64,000 nucleotides of DNA from Halocafeteria seosinensis (taxonomy: Eukaryota; Sar; Bigyra; Bicosoecida): contig LVLI01000294.1 in the NCBI GenBank assembly GCA_001687465.1, positions 152,711-216,710 on the forward strand. Direction: 5' to 3'. Below, one piece after another: positions 50,554 through 61,951 of this stretch (position 1 is its first letter; every line of letters begins with the position of its first letter). The notes under the pieces were generated by a model that saw nothing but the letters and a program-made list of their open reading frames with translations, did no database searches and was not told the origin of the DNA. The translations under genes were made by a program, and so were the position numbers.

Positions 50554-51783
50554 TCATGTATTCGAGCGCTTGGCATCGGCTGCCCGTGCCAAGTTGGTGC
50601 GAACCTCAGCACAAAATGAGCGGTAGTTTGCCCACGTGTTGTACGCCAACAATCCGCTAGCTGCAAATGTGCACAATGTTGCATACCGTAACGTCTTAAA
50701 GCGACGAAGCACTGCCAAATTTAGTAGTGCGAAGGACCCGATGGCGCATCCTCGAACACATGAATGTAGCGCATCTGAAGAGGGGACTTCACTTAGAGGG
50801 AGGGTACTGTAGTAGTCTGAGCTTTCCCAATTACGCCAAACTCCAGACGCAAGAGCAGGAGGTAAAACTGCGACAGAATGCATTCCGGGAAGTTCATGAA
50901 TACTGCAGGTTACAATTTTGGATCGTTCTTCGTAGCGCTGTTTACTAGCTGATAGTGCTAGGTATGCTTGAAATTCGCGAAATTGTTGGTAGTTCTGTTT
51001 CAAAACCGTAAAGGATGTGCGGTCTCTCTCTTGCTGCTTCTTGCGCCGATTCATTTCTTCCTCCGACAAAATGATTGCACCCGGGGCGCCTTGCGGAGGA
51101 TGCATCAGATTTGCCAAATTGTGCAGGAAGTGCCTAAATGCATCGATAGTGTCCTGTTCCACGTTCACATCCTCTTTCATAGGACATAAGGAATCCTCCA
51201 ACGAGATGGCTTCAGCCGTGAACGTACAGTGAACTCTATCGGCGAAGTCTCGCAAAGATTTCCCCAGATCTGCATAACTACCTCGGACCAATGCATATAC
51301 ACAGCGTCTGCCTTCTTTCGTCCACACAATCCATCTCAGTACCGGAGCACGTTCCCACCACGGGAGGCGTTGGTTCTCCACGTACCAAGACCGCCCAATC
51401 GTCACGAGTTCCACTCCTTCATTTTCAAACACGAATTGTTTGAGCTCATCCCATGGTCCCTGTTGTTCATGGGAAGACCCTGCTATCACAGGGTCTTGTA
51501 GCACCAGAATCAGAGGCTTACTGATACACTTCTCAATCAGTGGCATGATTCCAGGCCATTGGGGTTTGGCGGGCTCCTGGAACGCATTGGGCCTGATTCT
51601 CCTGGCATCGAGTCCGAATTGCAGAAACGCACTTCGCCGTGAAATGGGAATGCCAACGTCATCTGGAACGTGGGCCCTTAACTTCTCGCGTATCTGAGGC
51701 CATTTCTCCTGAACTTCCCACACATCCATGACGTAGATGTCCACCACCCCTCCATTTTGCTTCTGGCGTCGTACGACTTTCAT
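50554..51783 (-). CDS. Unknown protein with C-terminal membrane anchor
   Basis: I do not recognise this protein. Single exon, 409 aa, starting MKVVRRQKQNGGVVDIYVM. The N-terminal 220 residues are mixed alpha/beta (KPLILVLQDPVIAGSSHE; VLRWIVWTKEGRRCVYALVR). A helical, charged middle (EEEMNRRKKQQERDRTSFTV) follows. Near the C-terminus are two hydrophobic stretches (IGSFALLNLAVL and YATLCTFAASGLLAYNTW) that could form a hairpin or one tail anchor. No signal peptide is seen. It converges with the CAP-Gly gene, 60 nt between stops. Confidence 0.7.
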   Translation of the reverse strand: MKVVRRQKQNGGVVDIYVMDVWEVQEKWPQIREKLRAHVPDDVGIPISRRSAFLQFGLDARRIRPNAFQEPAKPQWPGIMPLIEKCISKPLILVLQDPVIAGSSHEQQGPWDELKQFVFENEGVELVTIGRSWYVENQRLPWWERAPVLRWIVWTKEGRRCVYALVRGSYADLGKSLRDFADRVHCTFTAEAISLEDSLCPMKEDVNVEQDTIDAFRHFLHNLANLMHPPQGAPGAIILSEEEMNRRKKQQERDRTSFTVLKQNYQQFREFQAYLALSASKQRYEERSKIVTCSIHELPGMHSVAVLPPALASGVWRNWESSDYYSTLPLSEVPSSDALHSCVRGCAIGSFALLNLAVLRRFKTLRYATLCTFAASGLLAYNTWANYRSFCAEVRTNLARAADAKRSNT

Positions 51784-52008
51784 GACGACACCAAAAAGAG
51801 AACAGAAGCTCGAAGGCAGTCAACGACACAATGACAAGAACACTATCCCTGCCAGCTTATAGTACAACACAGTGTCAGAAGACAGTACACTTCACAACAC
51901 GACACGGAAGTAACGACGGGGCACGAAAAAACTACACGAAAAGATGCGAATTTTTTTTGGATTGTTCGTGTTGTACTTGTGTATTAAGTGTGTCAACCAA
52001 AATAGCTG

Positions 52009-55000
52009 CTATGACCATGCTTGGTACTCGTTATCAGAATCGGAATCACTTTCTAAGACGTCGTCGACGAGCTCATGGAAAGTCTGCTGCTTTTTCTCCC
52101 ACTTTTCTTCTGCGTCCTCAACACACTTTAGCTTCGTTGCCCCGGGGTTCTTGCGTTCTTCCTTCAAGTCAGCGTAAATCCGCTTCATCCATCTCCCGCG
52201 ATTATCGCGCAGTAAGCGAAGTACAGGTTTTGCTTTTGGAAGTAATCGGGACACTTTCGCAAACAACGGGGCAACGATGAAATCAATAAAATTTACAGAA
52301 AGCTCATTTTGATTCGTCGTATTTCGATCCATGTTGGCTGATAGAGGCAGATTCTCCTTCTTCTCCCGGTCACCCTGGTTAAAGAACTCCCCGATCAAAC
52401 GGTCGCTCCAAATTTTGCTCAGGTCAAATGCCTTGCAACAATTGTTGATATCGGCTGCGTGTAGCAACGTCTTCATGAGCACCATTCGTTCTCCAGCGGA
52501 TATTGTTATTGCAAAGTCATGCCCTTCTTTGAACTTATACTCGTCGGGATAGATTCCGTGAGTACTTTGTTTGTCGTTGTTTGTCAGTAGTTCCACGATT
52601 CTGTTCTGTCTACTTTCTTTCAACAAGGTCCTGATACGTTTCTTATTATTCTCAATTACAGAACCAAAGTCTTCAGTTAATGTCATATGGCATGTCATAT
52701 CCGTAGCCAATATTGTTGACACAAACACTTTCCTGGCATATTTCTTGTCATCCGCTTCCAGACCATCCCAGAGGCCGTGCTCATTCAGGAGAAATGATCC
52801 GACCGCCGCATGATGGTTTTCCAGTACTGATGAGTCGTTATACCGAATCGCCAGCTCCGTTTGGGCACTTACCTGGTAGCTATTTCCGAGTCCTGGATGT
52901 TCCAGATCGTGACACAAACATGCTACTGCAAGAGCGTGGACTTCTAGAGGAGAAAACAAGCATGCTGCATCAAAGTTGATACACATGATATAGAAACAAT
53001 GTAAAACATCTACGGCGTGCCAGAAGTTGTGATACTTGACGACATCTGAAGAAAATAAACTCATGCGCTCGCATACGTCTTCAATAAAGTTGACATAGGA
53101 GTTCGCAGCAATCTTAAAGTACTGAGGTAAGCGCAGCGAAACGAACATGTACGTAACAATCGGGATCAAATGTTCCGGTTCTTCAGCGGGAAATTGAAAC
53201 ATATTGAACTCCCAAGTGTTCACATCCCCACAACGGGATCTATTCGAAGCAATGTCTTCCCGCAGCGCCGATATGTGCGCCACAATAGCAATTTCGTATA
53301 CAACGTCCTCCAAAACATGTGCTTCTTTCTCGGGCCCGCACAACACTTCCATCTCTCCGGGCAAGTGGTCGTCGACGTACCATTCGTATATCGTCTTCGC
53401 ATCAAAGGGACCATGCACATCGTCCTCCTCGCCTTCGTAATACAACTCGTCGAAAATACCGTTGGCTGCAGTACTATCTGCCTCGAGAAGTGTTTCCAGG
53501 CCCCAACCGAACCGACCGCGTGAAAGGGAATATTCCAAGATGCGATCCTTTGCGCACAGCTTGCTAGCGGGTAAATATCCTGGTACCCATTTGCAACGTT
53601 GATTGTGTACAGTGGAGGCATCCAATTGTTTAATTTCGTCGTTATCGGACCAACTGGTCACAGACCCTTCACTTTCCTCTCCGTCAATGGCTTCGGCCTC
53701 TGGAACAGACTGTAAGCTTCGCAACGAAATTTGTCCGGCACTGACTCTGCTTGCACGCCGGCTGTTTGATTGCGCAGAATGAGGACGGTCTTCTGAGGAA
53801 TCCTCAGAAGGCCGTCTAACATCGCCTTTGGAGGATGAGCGACGGAACTTTGAGATCCCAAAACTGCTTCCACGCTTCAATCTTGGGATGCCATTCCGAC
53901 TCGGAACATCGGACATGACTCCCAAACTCGCCCTGCGCAGAGCATTGCCAGCATTCTGTTGAGACGCAAGGCTCTGTTGGGCAATTGGCGTGTAGCTCTC
54001 GTTAGGTCTAGCGTACTCTGACAAGAACCAATCTCGGTTGGCTTCATCAACATTCAGGAACGAGAGTATTCGCGACAACTCTCCCTGGTTGTCAGTTTGC
54101 TTGTTAGCGTCAGGGCTTCCAGGCAGAGCTCTATTTTCGCGGTCATCAAGTATCTTAACTACAGCACTTACAATATCCTGTAGCATGCGGTGGTACCAGC
54201 TCATTTCTTTCTCTGTCACGCGTTCTTCGTTGTCAGCCTTAGCCCCAATGAGCTCATCCAGTCTCTTTAATTTTCGTTTGACGGATTCCATCTCATCACC
54301 GCGAACAACGAAGTATCCACTCTCGCTTTCACTGATGCTATCATCGTCGCTGTCAACCGTAGCTGTATCCTGAGTTTCGAGACTGCCCACAAAATCTAAT
54401 GTACCTGAGGCAACAGAAGAAAGGGCTTGTAACGCAAGAAATGACGCGGTCGAGTTTTGGGTTTTCTGTTCCTTCGCTCCTTCATTCGCATTCTTTTCTA
54501 GAAGTCGTCTTGTCACCTCGTCGTAAGCCTTTGGGGGTAATACAAGCTGCAAGCGCACCTGAAGGCTTCCCCTGTAGATCCATTCATTCTTATCTGGTTG
54601 GTGTGCCCACAGGTTTCTACGTTTGTAGCCTTGAGGCTCGGCATCATGGTAGAACTCCCAGCTTCGCGAAGAGTGTAGCGGCAACTCTTTTGTTTCGCCC
54701 TTGAATTCCACGGAATGAGCAGTTGGGGAGGGAGAAAAGCCACCGTTCTCATCAGCGCTCAATGAGCCATTCACTGTAGCAGTATTTTCCGAGTATGAGC
54801 GGTCCAAACTGTCTGTATCCTCATCTTGTTTTATTATTTCCACTTGAGACAACGCAACCTCGGTCATTCCTAGAAGCATATTTGCCCCATATTTGTCTTT
54901 GTCCCACACCATAAAGCGCAACTGACAATTCTCAATTTGATCAGCTCGTACAGGAAAGATAAAATACTGTTCCCATCTCGGGGTTTTGTCCAACGTTCGA

Positions 55001-58000
55001 ACTGTTGAATCTTGGGAGCTCCCATCCAGGTCTACGGTGACAAAAGGAGACGCGTACCCATTAGACTTGGCCGGAACTAAGTGTTTGGCACTTTCTAGAT
55101 AGACTGCCAATCTATTCCCACCGAAATCGAACGCTGCAGGCTCTGATTCGTTTTGTATCAGTTCGGATGCAGCTTTTGTCCCAGAGGCACTAGTACGCTT
55201 GTCAAGAACCGATGTGCTGTTAGCTTGCTGCTTCTTGAGGAAGTATCTGAGCACGAGATACCACTCTTCTGCTTGATCCGCGCTTTCTGCAGCAAAGTAA
55301 AAGCAGCGACTTTCGTCCATTTTTCCGCCCTTCTTGAACCAATGAGGGCAATCCAGTTGTAAAACATTGGCTACGGCAAACTCCCCTTCTTGAACCTTCT
55401 TGATCGAAGCACCTTGGAGAGGCACTATCTGAACAGGTCGTTCTCCTTTCTGCGAACCCCTTTCCTCTTTGAACATCGATAGTTTCTCAGAGTCCATTTC
55501 TACCCATCTCCACTTCCAAATTTTCTTCCCGAAAAAGCTTTTCGTCGTATCCACATTTTTCCGGACGTTTGCCCAACCCGCCTGAAACGTCGTTGTCGAA
55601 GAGCGCTGTACCATCTGGTCGAGCTTAGCCCGCGTAACCGCCTCTTTCTCTTTCATTAAAGATTCCTGAATAGACTTATCTAGATTCTTTCGCTGCTCCG
55701 CTAACACACGAAGGCGCACCGTGTCACTGACGAAAGAGTGGGTGAATTCGTATTGTGGCTCTATTGAAGATTCCGAGCCCACAGTGGGCTCAACGAGGGA
55801 TCGGATAATATATCCCTTGCTTTCAAGTTTCTGAAGCAATTGCGGTAACTGGGAACGGAGCGAGTCCATGGGGAAACTGTCATATAGCACGCTGAACTTA
55901 AAAACCTGCTGAAATAGCTGTGCTACATTTTGCGGAGTAGCGGCCGGATTTGGCGAACCTGGGGCCTGTCCACTTCCTTCTTGTGGAGTTTTGTCTCCAT
56001 CGCTTAGGCTCAGCCTCTCCTGCCCCGTTTTCCGCTTGTCTTGCATATTATGGTGAGCAATTATTGACCCTACTTTGAGTAACAGCTGCTCATGCGGCTC
56101 CAGACGATCAACTTGCATACCAAGATTCTTGTGGGTCATCCGACAAAAAGGTACCAGCGTGCGCAATCCATTGACAAGCTTTAAAATCCCACCCTTTCCA
56201 AAATCTGAGCCTTTGCTAAACAGATCATTCCTATCTTCTGTACTGGTACTACGCTTGGGCTGAGAGGCAGTGCGTCCCCGCTTCCTTATTTTCTCTTTAG
56301 CAAATAGAGGGAATGGGACGAGGTGGGTGCCCTTTTCCACAGTGACTCTATCCTCGTCTTCCGGGTCATCAGGTTCAACAATAACTCGCTGTTTGTTGAT
56401 AAGGTTGATTATAACTTCTTGTATCATCAGAGGGTTTCCCTGGGCCTTCCCTTCCACCAGATCGAGCAGCTGTCTAGAGAGAGCTCCATGCCATTGACAG
56501 CAAGATGCAACCAACACCTGGGAATCTCGTCGAGGGAGGCGGGATAGCCGAATAAAATTAACGAACGGGGCTTCCAGCATTGCACTATAGCTAGAAGGCG
56601 GTTCCGGGGTTATGGTGTCCAAGTATTGAGATATTGGGCGAGTCCCTAGGACTAGAGACAAAGGCAGGGACCCCGGTTGTCCCTTGGGAGCATCGCACGC
56701 GGCCGCCAGCTGCGAGACAGGAGTTTAGTGGCAACACAAAGTATGTCAAGATGGGTTGCGCAGATTTACTTACTTCTAAGGCAATATCCCACGACTCCGC
56801 GTGCATATATAAGGCATCGTCAATAATAATTACAGCCGGTTGGCTACTTACGATTGACCTTAGTAGTGCGAGAATGAGCGACTTCATGACTTGCTTCTTA
56901 ACTGCAGTGGTCAAATTTGATCCAACGGTAGTGGCGGGAATCTCAGTTCCCAGTAGTTCGTTTACAAAGGAAAACATCGAAGATAAGCGAGGGTCTGGGG
57001 CATATTCATGAAGAAGTTCGCGCGCAACCTCAGTCCTGGAGGAGTCTCCACGCTCATTGACCAGCTTGTCCAGATACTGGGAAAGGATGCTACCCCAGAC
57101 TGAATACCGTTCAGTCCTAGTAAAGGGACTTCCATTTGAGCAAAAAATGGAAGTCTTTCCGGTCATCATTTTCGTAAATTCTCGTAGTAAAAACGTTTTC
57201 CCGCAACCACTTGGGCCTTCAAGTACCACGCAGCTTCCTTGGTTGCTGCAGTACAGTTGCATTTTTGATAACAAAAGCGCTTGCTTCGCCGCATAATGCC
57301 GTGACTGGAGCATTGCCGCGTCTCTAGCTCTCACAAGAACAAAAGGCCACGGTTTCATTCCTTTGGCCAGCTCCGGATATTCCATGATATCTTGAAGCTC
57401 CGTGATAAAAATGGACACCCATCTCGTGTCCATATCCAATCGCGGCAAGAACATTTGGCTACCCTTGAACAAAAGCAAAAATTCCTTATCGTCAGCGCTC
57501 TTATCCAATAAACTCAGCGACTTCGCCATATCAGTAGCACTCTTCACTAGCGAATTAAGTGTAAGATCTTCGCCATTGACCTCCAATGCTTCTGGAAAGT
57601 CGCGCAAAGCGTCATACTTAATTTCTTTTGTCAAATAGTCACCGTCTTGGAGGCCATTGGGGATCTGAATAGTGAGAGATCCTACTTCTGGTATAGTTGT
57701 AAATGTGTATCGCGGTGGAGAGTTTAGAAGTAGAACTTCTGTAATGGTCTTCGCAAGGGGGGCTGGGGGAGTCCGAGGTATCATCGACAAATACAATGGC
57801 TCCGAAAAATTCATCAGATTAGCTCCTTCTGATTTCTTTAAGCGCGGTGTTTTAAAGGAAGGGCTGGCAGATTTCTTTTCCTCAGCTCTAGCCATCACTT
57901 CCCCTGGATCAGATCGAGGAGGGGGAGGGTCTACATAATGTAGGTGTAGATTCGAAAACTCATGGTATTTCTTAAGCTGTTCCAGGTAATTGGTGTGATA

Positions 58001-59572
58001 GGACGACATATTCGAATCGTTGTTTTCAGTATCGACGATTGGCTGGTAGATCTTTATAGGCATTGTCTTTCCTTTAACGTATATCGCATCCAGCTTCTTG
58101 AAGGACAAGCCATTCTGGCTGCCCTTCATTATTTCCTCATCGACAAGCACTCCACCACCCGTTTGGCATGCGCGTTGCATCAACCTGGCGGAGAGGTTAA
58201 CAGTGTCGCCAAGCACGCTGTACTCCTTCCGGGTAGTTGAGCCCGCAACGCCACAGAAAACAACACCAGTGGTTATACCAATCGAAGCAGTGAGTCCAAG
58301 TTCCCATAATCGGTCGCATATAGCTAAGCCACAAAGAACACCTCTTGTGGAGTCGTCCTCGTGAGAAAGAGGGGGCAGACCAAAAACTGCAATCAAAGTA
58401 GATCCCTTATCATCCATCAGAAACTTATTAACCGAGCCTTCATATTGGTATACAGAACGCTGAACAGCGACCAAAACTTGATGGGACCGTTGCATAGCGT
58501 CATCATATTGCGCTGCAGCAAGTAAATCATGCTCTTTCAGTCCTAAATTGACAAATAAAACACAAGCGTTTCGAAGATCACCACCCCAAGATTCCAAATC
58601 GGGACAGTCAGGGGAGATCCAAGGTAGAATAGCGCCTGGCAAATAACTTCGTAGAAGCCTTTCCAGTTCGGGGCCATGGGTATCCAGGTCATCCAAGCCC
58701 ATCTTTTTCATCATGTAAACCTTTCCCATTTTTGTTAATTTGTGTTTGATAGGCCCTGCAGCAAAGTGGATAGGTGCTCGTTCCTAAACCTCCAGGTTAG
58801 GTAGCAAACAGCCTGTCGGACGAATGGCTTACCTTCCTGATTGCTTTCTTCGGGAGAAATCCCAACGCCATCTCTTGTTAACCGGACGGCACCGGATTCC
58901 ATCACATTAAGAGGGTTAAAATACTTTTCGATCATTGACCACGCTTCAGCGGAAACTATAACCTCTCCTCCAGCTTCAGCGTGGTGCTCCGCTTCGAAAG
59001 CCTGGACTAAGGGTTCACCAACAGCAACATATTCCATTCTGTTAAGTACACCTCCTAAATGCAGTACGGACACGTTTCCAACGCCTATACCAACTTTCAC
59101 ACTAAGGGTAACTCCTTCTGCCAGGGCGGCTTTATGCAAGGACTCTTGAATAGCTAAAGCACACTGTGCAGCGCGTCGAGCTCGAAGTTCGAGTTCATCT
59201 ACATCTGGCCATAGAATGATCATAGCATCTCCAGCAAACTTGAAGATATCCCCACCTTCCGAGGCGATGAGCTTTACCATCTGGCTAAAGTACGAGTTGA
59301 GATGTTTAGCAAGGTATTCGGCGCCTTCTGGTCCATATTTTCCCATGGCTTCACTGAGCGCAGTGAAGCCACTCACATCGGCAAACATACATACTGTGCT
59401 ATAGCTGCAGAGCCCAAAGACAAGGCAGTGAGATTCTAGTGAGGTGCATCGGTTGTATGAGGAACAGCACTTACTTTTGCCGCGTTGGAGGGTTATCCGT
59501 CGTATCATGGTCAGCCAAATGATGGACGATAAGAGAGGGCAAATAGGAGGCTAAAATCTCCACGAATTTCAT
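52009..59572 (-). CDS. Soluble adenylyl cyclase fused to a cyclic-nucleotide phosphodiesterase (2,450 aa)
   Basis: Predicted bifunctional cAMP enzyme. Exons 59572-59475, 59404-58833, 58755-56774, 56709-52009; introns 70, 77 and 64 nt; phases join exactly. The N-terminus follows ADCY10: MKFVEILASYLPSLIVHH, cyclase domain 1 (about 35-195; metal Asp in CMFADVSGF and FKFAGDA), cyclase domain 2 (about 285-460; adenine Lys 334 in NKFLMDDKG, Asn 410 and Arg 414 in VNLSARLM), and a P-loop NTPase (GPSGCGKT at 736-743, Walker B VIIIDD near 864-869). Added domains: PH (about 1258-1376), C2 (about 1416-1610), a linker rich in RRxS sites (1808-1875), GYF-like (about 1970-2012) and a class I phosphodiesterase (about 2048-2400; YHNFWH, CHDLEHPGLGN, LLHAADINN). 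A Ser replaces the purine-binding Gln of that domain (residue 2355). The nearest alternative would be two adjacent genes, but exon 4 is one open frame of 4,701 nt spanning NTPase to phosphodiesterase. Confidence 0.93.
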
Positions 59573-60346
59573 CGTTCAATCAAGAAAGAGAAATAGGCCT
59601 TTTACTCAGCGCGCCCCTCCTTGTCCAAGGAAACAAGGGGAGCAAAGGAATCTCTTTGTGCTCTCTTACACTTCCAAGAATGTGAGGAAAGACTTAACAG
59701 ATCGGCACCAATAACACAGATACAAAATTACGGCTGAGGAGAGCAAAGAGATGGATAATCAGCTAGAATTCACCCGTACCCGCGGTACTGCCCAGGCTCC
59801 AGCTCGCCCCAAGTCTTATTCTCTGTGAGGTACCCATTCCACTGCCAGTTTGGCGTCTAAAGTACATCAACGCAGTGGAGTCTCTAGCTGGTGTACCTCC
59901 ACACATTAAGCAGCCCGCACAACAACACTTGTCGACTCAGACAATGCGAGTGTGATTCCCTTTGCGACAGTTGTAGCCGGCAGGGTCCGGAACGGAAGCC
60001 AACCGCGCGGTCCCCGGCTGGAAGTATGCAACCCCAATTAAGCGTCAGCACCGATCTGGGGAGCACTTTTCTTAGAAAAACATAGAGCAATATCGCATCA
60101 CCACAAAAACGAAGATCAGAAAGGTGCTATTTGGCATCGCATGGCTTTTAGTCTCGATGGCGCCAAAATGGTGGCGGGGTTGGNGATTGATGACAGCAGG
60201 GAACTGACTGGTAGGAATACTCGTAGCGTCGTGTTATTATAAAAAAGTGCACAAGTTGCCGCTATACAGACATGGAGAAAAAGAACAATTATCGCCCTTC
60301 CAGTGGTTCTCAACGTGGAGCGAGAGGGCACCACGTCTACGGCACA
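59573..60346. promoter_or_regulatory. Intergenic region upstream of the cyclase-phosphodiesterase gene
   Basis: A 774-nt interval between two minus-strand genes. It should hold the promoter of the cyclase gene and the 3' UTR of Beclin-1. It contains one undetermined base (n at 60184). Short open frames around 59884-60090 on both strands have no recognisable content, and no repeat or RNA gene stands out. Confidence 0.4.
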
Positions 60347-61951
60347 TTATTGAAAAACCCGTTCCCCAACGGAGTTCATAGAAACTACAAGTAAGAATTT
60401 GAGATCTGACAACAAGTAATTCATCGCTTGCGTCCATAACACTTTATCTGTAGACCGAATAGTTACACCGCCGATTCTGTCATCCTCAATCGGGTAGGGG
60501 ATGTTTAAGTCCGAGTACTTCGGCAGCCGATGCTCTACCAGCGACTGGACACAATGAAGCAATTTCACTAGAGCTTTGTCTAAACGCTTCCTTTTCGAGT
60601 TATTTTCGCAGTATCTGCAAGAAATGAAAGGATAAACGAATGGCTGTCAAATAAAGAGAATTTGTAATAATGAACGTACAAAGGATCGGCGTTTTGCTCA
60701 TCGCCATGACGAGCTACTGTGGAGAAACTACCCATCGGAATAACGATGTACGGTTCCAACCGATACTCCAGTCTGTTAGCCACAACCAATAACATTAAAG
60801 CGGCATGGCCCAGAGCGGCATTTACTTCTCTCCAGTCTAACTCATGACTGGGTAAGAGTCCTATACGCAAGTTATTGATGGTAGCCATGCTTCCGTAATG
60901 CCAAATGAAGAACGCATCGTTTGTGGCGTCTAGTTGTTGCAATTTAAGAAGCTGCAAAGATAGAGGCTTAATTGCTTTATCTAACAACAAAGTGGAGACG
61001 GTAACACTCCTCCATTAACTTACCCATCTGCTGAGTACTCTTGTTCGAATGCGATAACTCGAGTGCTGATCCGCAAGTTTCGACCTGTAGCTGGCCAGGG
61101 TTCTACTCAACTCCCACACTCTGTATTGAAACATAGGAGTAAACCATTAGTAAAAAAAGACGTATATGACGTATGTCAATGTCTCCACGTACTGGTCGTA
61201 TTTACGTTTAAGTTCATACTCCCGCTGTGCCTCTTTCTTCTTTTCTTCTAATAATTTTTGCTTCCGCTCTTTCAGCTCCTTAATCTCTTGCTCCAGTCGT
61301 CTTTCTTCATCAGTAAGCGCTTGCTGAGCCACAAATCAAGGCAATAAAATTGAACTCGGTATAGGAACGACACGGCTTTACGGAAGAAGCACCCACCAAT
61401 GAGTTTTCTGGCGAACTTGTATAAATATCTTCGAACGAGTATTCTAAGCTATCTTCAAAGCTACCTCCAGAAGTGGCGGCTTGATACATGTCGAGCAATT
61501 TATCCGTCATCATAAGGGAGTGTTGCTCACTGTAATCAAACTCTAATTCCGAAAGAGTCTGCTCAAACGTCGAATCAGTCTCACATGCCACTTTGTTTCG
61601 AAAGGATTCCCAGGAGGAGTCTGGCTTGGTGTATTCCCAGGTCACCAGGTATTGAGCCCGAAAATCTAGGCCCGACGCAAAGCCTCTTGTTGCATACTCT
61701 AGCTCGGCATCATCTATCCATGCCGCCCTCATTGGCCGATGATACAGCCGGTTCTGTGTACTCTCTCCGTCTGTGTTTTGCTGGGTTGGTCGACTATGAT
61801 CCGTAGGAGGCTGCGGCGGACGAACTCCCTCGGAGTGTCGTGGAGACGAGTGTGCTGTTTCACTTCGTGTGGTTGCATTCGTCTCAGCTTGAAGGTCCTG
61901 GGAGACTTGGGAGGCATTTGTGCCTAATTTCTGTTGTGGAGTGCTGTTCAT
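60347..61951 (-). CDS. ATG6: Autophagy protein Beclin-1/ATG6 (VPS30)
   Basis: Subunit of class III PI3-kinase complexes that start autophagosomes. The N-terminal exon runs from 61951 to about 61397 or 61382, then one from 61323 to near 61195, one ending at 61024, one ending at 60680, and the last 60615-60347. Clear family parts: coiled coil EERRLEQEIKELKERKQKLL, then the beta-alpha autophagy domain FFIWHYGSMATINNLRIG, LDWREVNAALGHAALMLLVV, DPLYCENNSKRKRLDKALVK (joined across a 64-nt intron), and the C-terminal STDKVLWTQAMNYLLSDLKF. The N-terminus is Ser/Thr-rich with no obvious BH3 motif. The middle splice sites (60950-61200) are not resolved: several donor and acceptor pairs fit, one of them giving a 43-nt intron. 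Identity is firm, the exact coiled-coil sequence is not. Confidence 0.88.

Follow-up and report, generated by a model that had tools for sequence, protein, structure and literature searches.

We analyzed a stretch of 64,000 nucleotides from Halocafeteria seosinensis (contig LVLI01000294.1, positions 152,711 to 216,710; hereafter the window), which carries on its minus strand, between positions 59572 and 52009, a gene for a predicted fusion of a soluble adenylyl cyclase (sAC) with a class I phosphodiesterase (PDE). Positions are given in window numbering, and all features of this gene lie on the minus strand. The gene model runs from a start codon at 59572 to a stop codon ending at 52009 and consists of four exons and three introns (59474-59405, 58832-58756 and 56773-56710), every one of which is bounded by GT..AG, giving a product of 2,450 amino acids. 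The coordinates of a first-pass annotation of the window were reproduced exactly.

Exon 1 (59475..59572) opens with the ATG at 59572, and its start, MKFVEILASYLPS, is similar to the start of the related record P0069, MKFVDILASYLPS; the context of the start codon also agrees with the starts of P0069, P0004, P0006, P0072 and P0016. Exon 2 (58833..59404) contains the bulk of cyclase domain C1 (Guanylate_cyc, residues 32-192), including the metal-binding Asp42 and Asp92, Lys88, and Phe169, whose human counterpart is Arg176. Exon 3 (56774..58755) encodes cyclase domain C2 and the first part of an NTPase, and exon 4 (52009..56709; 1,566 codons plus stop) encodes in one frame the remainder of the NTPase, a PH domain, a C2 domain, a GYF-like stretch and the phosphodiesterase. 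Each splice junction is colinear with related records: intron 1 (59405..59474, 70 nucleotides) with P0069 and P0016, intron 2 (58756..58832, 77 nucleotides) best with P0001-P0003, and intron 3 (56710..56773, 64 nucleotides) with P0001-P0003, P0069 and P0070. The frame at this locus has 1,571 codons, and the longest one seen when the window was resampled 60 times under a first-order Markov model had 274; a single BLAST alignment with P0003 spans residues 33-2432, linkers included. The proposal that cyclase and phosphodiesterase are fused in one gene was confirmed, the last exon being a single frame from the NTPase to the phosphodiesterase, and the gene is presumably transcribed as a single mRNA.

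A Pfam scan of the product matched Guanylate_cyc twice (1.3e-20), AAA_16 (5e-9), PH (2e-9), C2 (1.9e-14) and PDEase_I (7.2e-74), in agreement with the first-pass list and order of two cyclases, NTPase, PH, C2 and phosphodiesterase. A sequence search of the PDB matched residues 7-455 to human ADCY10 (5.1e-49) and also returned PDE4B (6.5e-48). Cyclase domain C2 (58040..58558, approximately residues 290-462, with limits set by hand and the ADCY10 alignment reaching residue 455) carries the catalytic residues Lys334, Ser403, Asn410 and Arg414. The AAA_16 stretch of the NTPase (56783..57271, residues 719-881, continuing past intron 3) scored 37.3 bits against a cut-off of 32.6 and contains the Walker A motif GPSGCGKT from residue 737. 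Pfam placed the PH domain at 55243..55542, the C2 domain at 54838..55113 and the phosphodiesterase catalytic domain at 52216..53034. The GYF-like domain of the first-pass annotation was seen as a weak stretch, at 53344..53442: it scored 18.6 bits in the window, under the cut-off of 25.7, and the domain was over the cut-off in P0003 (28.3), P0069 (27.0) and P0070 (27.6), where it is likewise placed between C2 and the phosphodiesterase.

An AlphaFold model of 52012-53550 (mean pLDDT 79.8) matched PDE4B in Foldseek (E 4.4e-18, TMt 0.83); no UCR match was found in the Pfam scan of the product. The PH fold was strong in the model of 54553-55668, and K37, K52 and R54, in the numbering of that piece, were invariant in eight aligned rows. 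Phosphoinositide-binding PH domains are marked by a basic motif, K-x(n)-K/R-x-R, in strands 1 and 2, and the spacing of the three residues lies at its edge.

Relatives, paralogues and history of the fusion

A check for the same domain order in relatives, proposed with the first-pass annotation, found it in several records, including P0003, P0069 and P0016 of Chrysoparadoxa australica. The order cyclase, NTPase, PH, C2, phosphodiesterase is common to these three and P0004. In P0016 the cyclases, AAA_16, PH, C2 and phosphodiesterase are each above the Pfam cut-offs, and the precomputed lists of P0001-P0003 (2,483-2,560 amino acids) hold the Pfam families of the window, GYF included. AAA_16 was below the cut-off in P0003, P0004, P0006 and P0069, as was C2 in P0004, and P0006 had no C2 match. 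P0072 of Durusdinium trenchii has cyclases, PH and phosphodiesterase with no C2 or AAA match, and P0017 of Chrysophaeum taylorii (1,307 amino acids) has one cyclase stretch, a PH below the cut-off and a phosphodiesterase. Fourteen phosphodiesterase rows, the window included, were classed as window-type by tree position and similarity, whether or not a PH domain was found; a Pfam PH match was present in 10 of them (the window, P0001-P0004, P0006, P0016, P0069, P0070 and P0072), none was found in P0005 and P0071, and the precomputed list of P0073 held PDEase_I alone. Judged from these records, the architecture is kept across several algal and protist lineages.

Two further cyclase-first fusions, L038 and L040, were found in the 30.6-Mb assembly of the window. 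Their cyclase, NTPase-like and phosphodiesterase parts lie in open frames of 2,324 and 1,951 codons, respectively, with AAA_16 scores under the cut-off in both. Pfam reports no cyclase in L040, the cyclase part of which was recognized by alignment and tree; an extra 5' exon just upstream carries the metal aspartate motif FVDISGFT. Another locus of the same genome, L039 (contig C87, 316-9069, minus strand), holds one frame of 2,917 codons with two cyclase matches and is a possible cyclase-kinase fusion, its membrane segments and split protein-kinase domain being recognized by eye only.

A cyclase tree of 63 rows was built by a quick method, with support from the Shimodaira-Hasegawa-like approximate likelihood-ratio test (SH-aLRT) only; P0019, with its phosphodiesterase before the cyclase, was counted as unfused, and P0042 and P0044 were not in the tree. 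Fourteen of the 15 cyclase-first fusions fell into one starred clade, the fusion of Hanusia phi (P0020) lying elsewhere. Within this clade also lay P0009 (1,579 amino acids), an FYVE-bearing sAC with no phosphodiesterase in the record, which perhaps reflects an exchanged lipid-binding domain or a gene model truncated in prediction. In the phosphodiesterase tree (37 rows), 11 of the 14 window-type tails formed a starred clade, and P0016, P0017 and P0073 stood in an unresolved fork beside it with the green-algal phosphodiesterase P0074. The tails of L038, L040 and P0015 lay elsewhere, grouped with PDE4B.

In the approximately unbiased (AU) test, the 14 window-type rows held as a clade gave p = 0.315, and 17 fusion-type tails held together gave p = 0.0169. 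A single origin for every cyclase-first phosphodiesterase tail is thus disfavored by the test of the 17 rows, which is moderate evidence only because the row sets were settled after the tree had been viewed, with Hanusia left out and P0070, P0071 and P0073, which have no cyclase in the record, kept in. Of the 15 fusion cyclases, 14 thus belong to one clade, but the phosphodiesterases appear to belong to two, and the simplest reading of the trees would be two phosphodiesterase additions, or one swap, on one sAC lineage.

Cyclase and phosphodiesterase active sites

The cyclase sites were compared in 14 cyclase-first fusions, the window included and Hanusia excluded, in human ADCY10 numbering. 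K95, D99, K144, K334, Ser/Thr405, N412 and R416 are kept in all 14, with Ser at position 405 in the window, and D47 was found in 12, the gaps being P0005, which has a late-starting record, and L040, where the row does not include the first exon. At position 176, the bicarbonate-switch position, every one of the 14 has Phe, and Lys95 is retained. This loss of Arg is not specific to the fusions, because just 2 of 48 other non-human rows have Arg there.

According to excerpts of the published work, the bicarbonate site of human sAC consists of K95 and R176, an Arg176-Asp99 lock is described for the same enzyme, and neither the sea urchin nor the salmon sAC, which lack one of K95 and R176 apiece, gave a bicarbonate or calcium response. 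Since Arg176 is replaced by Phe, gating by bicarbonate through the known mechanism is unlikely, and the aligned residues suggest that the cyclase is probably not bicarbonate-gated. By analogy with the sea urchin enzyme, it may be open by default or set by pH, absent the Arg176-Asp99 lock. Two loop-1 aspartates belong to the calcium site of C2 domains; in the window Lys and Ser stand at these positions, so calcium control through the C2 domain is unlikely. With both sites altered, the earlier description of the cyclase as bicarbonate- or calcium-tuned was not borne out.

The metal ligands of the phosphodiesterase (His, His, Asp, Asp) are intact in the window and kept in 20 of the 21 rows compared with PDE4B. 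The purine-binding Gln, invariant in class I phosphodiesterases, is replaced by Ser2355 (codon 52297..52299). Of the 14 window-type rows, 10 have Ser at this place, 3 have Thr and 1, Chrysoparadoxa P0016, has Gln; P0016 had a gap there in a first alignment and Gln in a later one, the later one being used. Every other row with a letter at this place has Gln, 20 in number and 10 of them from the window's genome; three rows had no letter, and one of these, L030, showed Gln when another frame was scanned for the motif.

A comparable replacement is found in CAPE (COMBINED AC with PDE; Marchantia and other streptophytes), which, like the window's product, unites a class III cyclase with a class I phosphodiesterase on a single chain: the excerpted text of the 2021 CAPE paper gives Thr or Asn at the Gln place, also small polar residues. 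Marchantia MpCAPE is described in excerpts as having both activities; its phosphodiesterase, with Thr at the Gln place, hydrolyzes cAMP far better than cGMP (2016 paper) and loses activity when its conserved His residues are mutated, and its cyclase gave no bicarbonate response (2016 paper). A Gln-to-Glu change in PDE9, again according to an excerpt, lowers kcat/KM about 50-fold for cGMP and about 5-fold for cAMP. Loss of the Gln is therefore not equivalent to a dead enzyme, because MpCAPE with Thr there is active, and an altered affinity is plausible, because the PDE9 change lowers kcat/KM. Loss of the Gln appears to be common to two kinds of cyclase-phosphodiesterase fusion of opposite order, CAPE being compared by description only.

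Comparison with known systems

The likeness to ADCY10 consists of the C1-C2 pair, aligned over residues 7-455, and the catalytic residues. An NTPase follows the cyclases in the window's product, as in ADCY10. The window's product differs in Phe for Arg176 and in the additional C-terminal PH, C2, GYF-like stretch and phosphodiesterase. PDE4 is the closest family of solved structure by sequence and fold, from which the window's tail differs in having Ser for the invariant Gln and no UCR match. By its head, the protein is, on this evidence, a member of the sAC family, and its tail is by fold and metal site a class I phosphodiesterase without the invariant Gln.

Domain order separates it from CAPE, as the first-pass annotation had pointed out. 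In the excerpted descriptions, CAPE runs from phosphodiesterase through transmembrane regions to cyclase and no NTPase is mentioned, whereas the window has the reverse order with NTPase, PH and C2 in the middle place; judged by domain order, the window's product is not a CAPE. Water molds (Saprolegnia, Achlya and Thraustotheca) have CAPE-like genes said in an excerpt to have the "same domain organizations as CAPE" (PMC8115329). They join cyclase and phosphodiesterase in non-photosynthetic stramenopiles and are separate from plant CAPE in the trees of that source; their proteins could be relatives of the window family or of the phosphodiesterase-first proteins. Profile searches of the window's genome found no light-harvesting proteins (PF00504) and no silicon transporter (PF03842), which makes a diatom origin unlikely; the absence of the former and the cyclase tree would suit a non-photosynthetic stramenopile.

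Other arrangements of the two enzymes occur among the records compared. P0019, P0042 and P0044 hold cyclase and phosphodiesterase in one record in the other order; P0042 (1,416 amino acids) and P0044 (1,445 amino acids) run from GAF through phosphodiesterase to cyclase and keep the invariant Gln. The Hanusia phi protein P0020 (1,921 amino acids) combines an additional cNMP-binding domain with cyclase and phosphodiesterase, and is perhaps an independent fusion, its cyclase being outside the main fusion clade. The first-pass statement that the window's architecture was not known from any described protein holds among the matches listed in the open-licence literature, where no other description of it was found; the only proteins there with a class III cyclase and a class I phosphodiesterase were plant CAPE and the water-mold CAPE-like proteins, the latter from an excerpt (PMC8115329). 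Cyclase-phosphodiesterase fusions are known, and the sAC-type form appears to be a new one among them.

A predicted cAMP turnover enzyme and its alternatives

We consider it reasonably likely that this single gene encodes a bifunctional cAMP enzyme in which an sAC head makes cAMP and a phosphodiesterase tail breaks it down, on a chain held at a membrane. The ADCY10-type head, with intact C1-C2 catalytic residues and followed by the NTPase module, would make cAMP, PH and C2 would hold the protein on the membrane, and the C-terminal class I phosphodiesterase would degrade cAMP at the same spot. Such a pair could keep a local cAMP level with fast turnover, or answer activation of the cyclase with a brief pulse, and spread would be prevented; the tail would remove whatever cAMP from the head is not caught by a nearby target. 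A tail of lower affinity would spare basal cAMP and clip the peaks. With its unusual purine pocket, the phosphodiesterase may differ in affinity and specificity. Both activities, the membrane location and the pulse behavior are predictions, and the "self-limiting cAMP pulses at a membrane" of the first-pass annotation are a reasonable inference from such a model. The window's 30.6-Mb genome is rich in cyclic-nucleotide genes, with 38 cyclase, 17 phosphodiesterase and 36 cNMP-binding domain matches in an exon-by-exon count; the last, at E up to 0.001 and a few of them below the cut-off, are possible cAMP targets.

Several points weigh against this bifunctional enzyme. Its placement on a membrane by PH and C2 is read from folds only. 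The regulator of the cyclase could be any of several candidates: pH, ATP or the NTPase, membrane lipid, or partners of the GYF-like part. Three records (P0070, P0071 and P0073) have a window-type phosphodiesterase with no cyclase in the record, P0003 has Gly at one metal Asp, and the phosphodiesterase may be weak, with Ser for Gln, by comparison with the PDE9 mutant. The last two points would also suit a phosphodiesterase domain that acts as a sensor and not a sink, binding cAMP or another nucleotide, hydrolyzing little of it and feeding back on the cyclase, as would the replacement of Gln by Ser or Thr in 13 of the 14 window-type rows beside its presence in all 20 other lettered rows. We regard a sensor as unlikely, since the metal ligands are so widely kept, and since, in the excerpts cited above, the MpCAPE phosphodiesterase hydrolyzes cAMP with Thr at that place and loses activity in conserved-His mutants.

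It is improbable that the locus yields two products, with an internal promoter, an alternative end or proteolysis parting cyclase from phosphodiesterase. P0070 (1,770 amino acids) does start past the cyclase part, and the Pfam lists of P0071 and P0073 are without a cyclase, but P0070 aligns from window residue 617, ahead of the NTPase and not at the PH domain, which fits an intron-split prediction; moreover, P0001-P0003 and P0069 are single records with both enzymes, and the paralogues L038 and L040 have them in one frame. The P0003 alignment, the single frames of L038 and L040 and the single-record relatives likewise leave two separate genes unsupported. Little credence is given to a cyclase gated by bicarbonate or calcium as in mammalian ADCY10: the ADCY10-type C1-C2 pair and the conserved Lys95 would agree with such gating, but Phe at position 176 in all 14 fusions, Lys and Ser in loop 1 of the C2 domain, and the unresponsiveness reported in the excerpts for the sea urchin and salmon sACs and, toward bicarbonate, for the MpCAPE cyclase argue against it. 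An assembly chimera or a wrong gene model is scarcely credible. A single N at 60184 marks the draft quality of the assembly and the model rests on sequence, but other records share the order, the P0003 alignment covers both enzymes, and the junctions match those of relatives.

Beyond the bifunctional enzyme itself, a wider reading is put forward tentatively, as one that may well fail: cAMP turnover enzymes that are membrane-bound and self-contained would form a class found in stramenopiles and at least one dinoflagellate, the phosphodiesterase having been attached at least twice to one sAC lineage and retuned, in the branch of the window, by losing the Gln, a loss described for plant CAPE fusions as well. 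Were this so, an altered purine pocket would seem to suit a phosphodiesterase joined to its own cyclase, for instance through a lower affinity that confines its action to high local cAMP. Scaffolds that join separate cyclases and phosphodiesterases are a frequent means by which cells shape cAMP signals. Here both enzymes are on one chain with domains of lipid-binding type, an arrangement kept in several lineages, and the fusion may be a self-contained cAMP control device. That arrangement makes it a natural system in which to test how cells generate local cAMP signals. It could also serve as a component in engineered cAMP control, and it opens a way to ask why phosphodiesterases joined to cyclases, both here and in plant CAPE, are without the "invariant" Gln.

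Both neighbors of the fusion gene lie on the minus strand. The downstream neighbor (50554-51819) is a frame of 421 codons that matched no Pfam family at E up to 0.001, and the upstream neighbor (60580-61014) carries an Apg6/Beclin BARA domain and is an autophagy gene.

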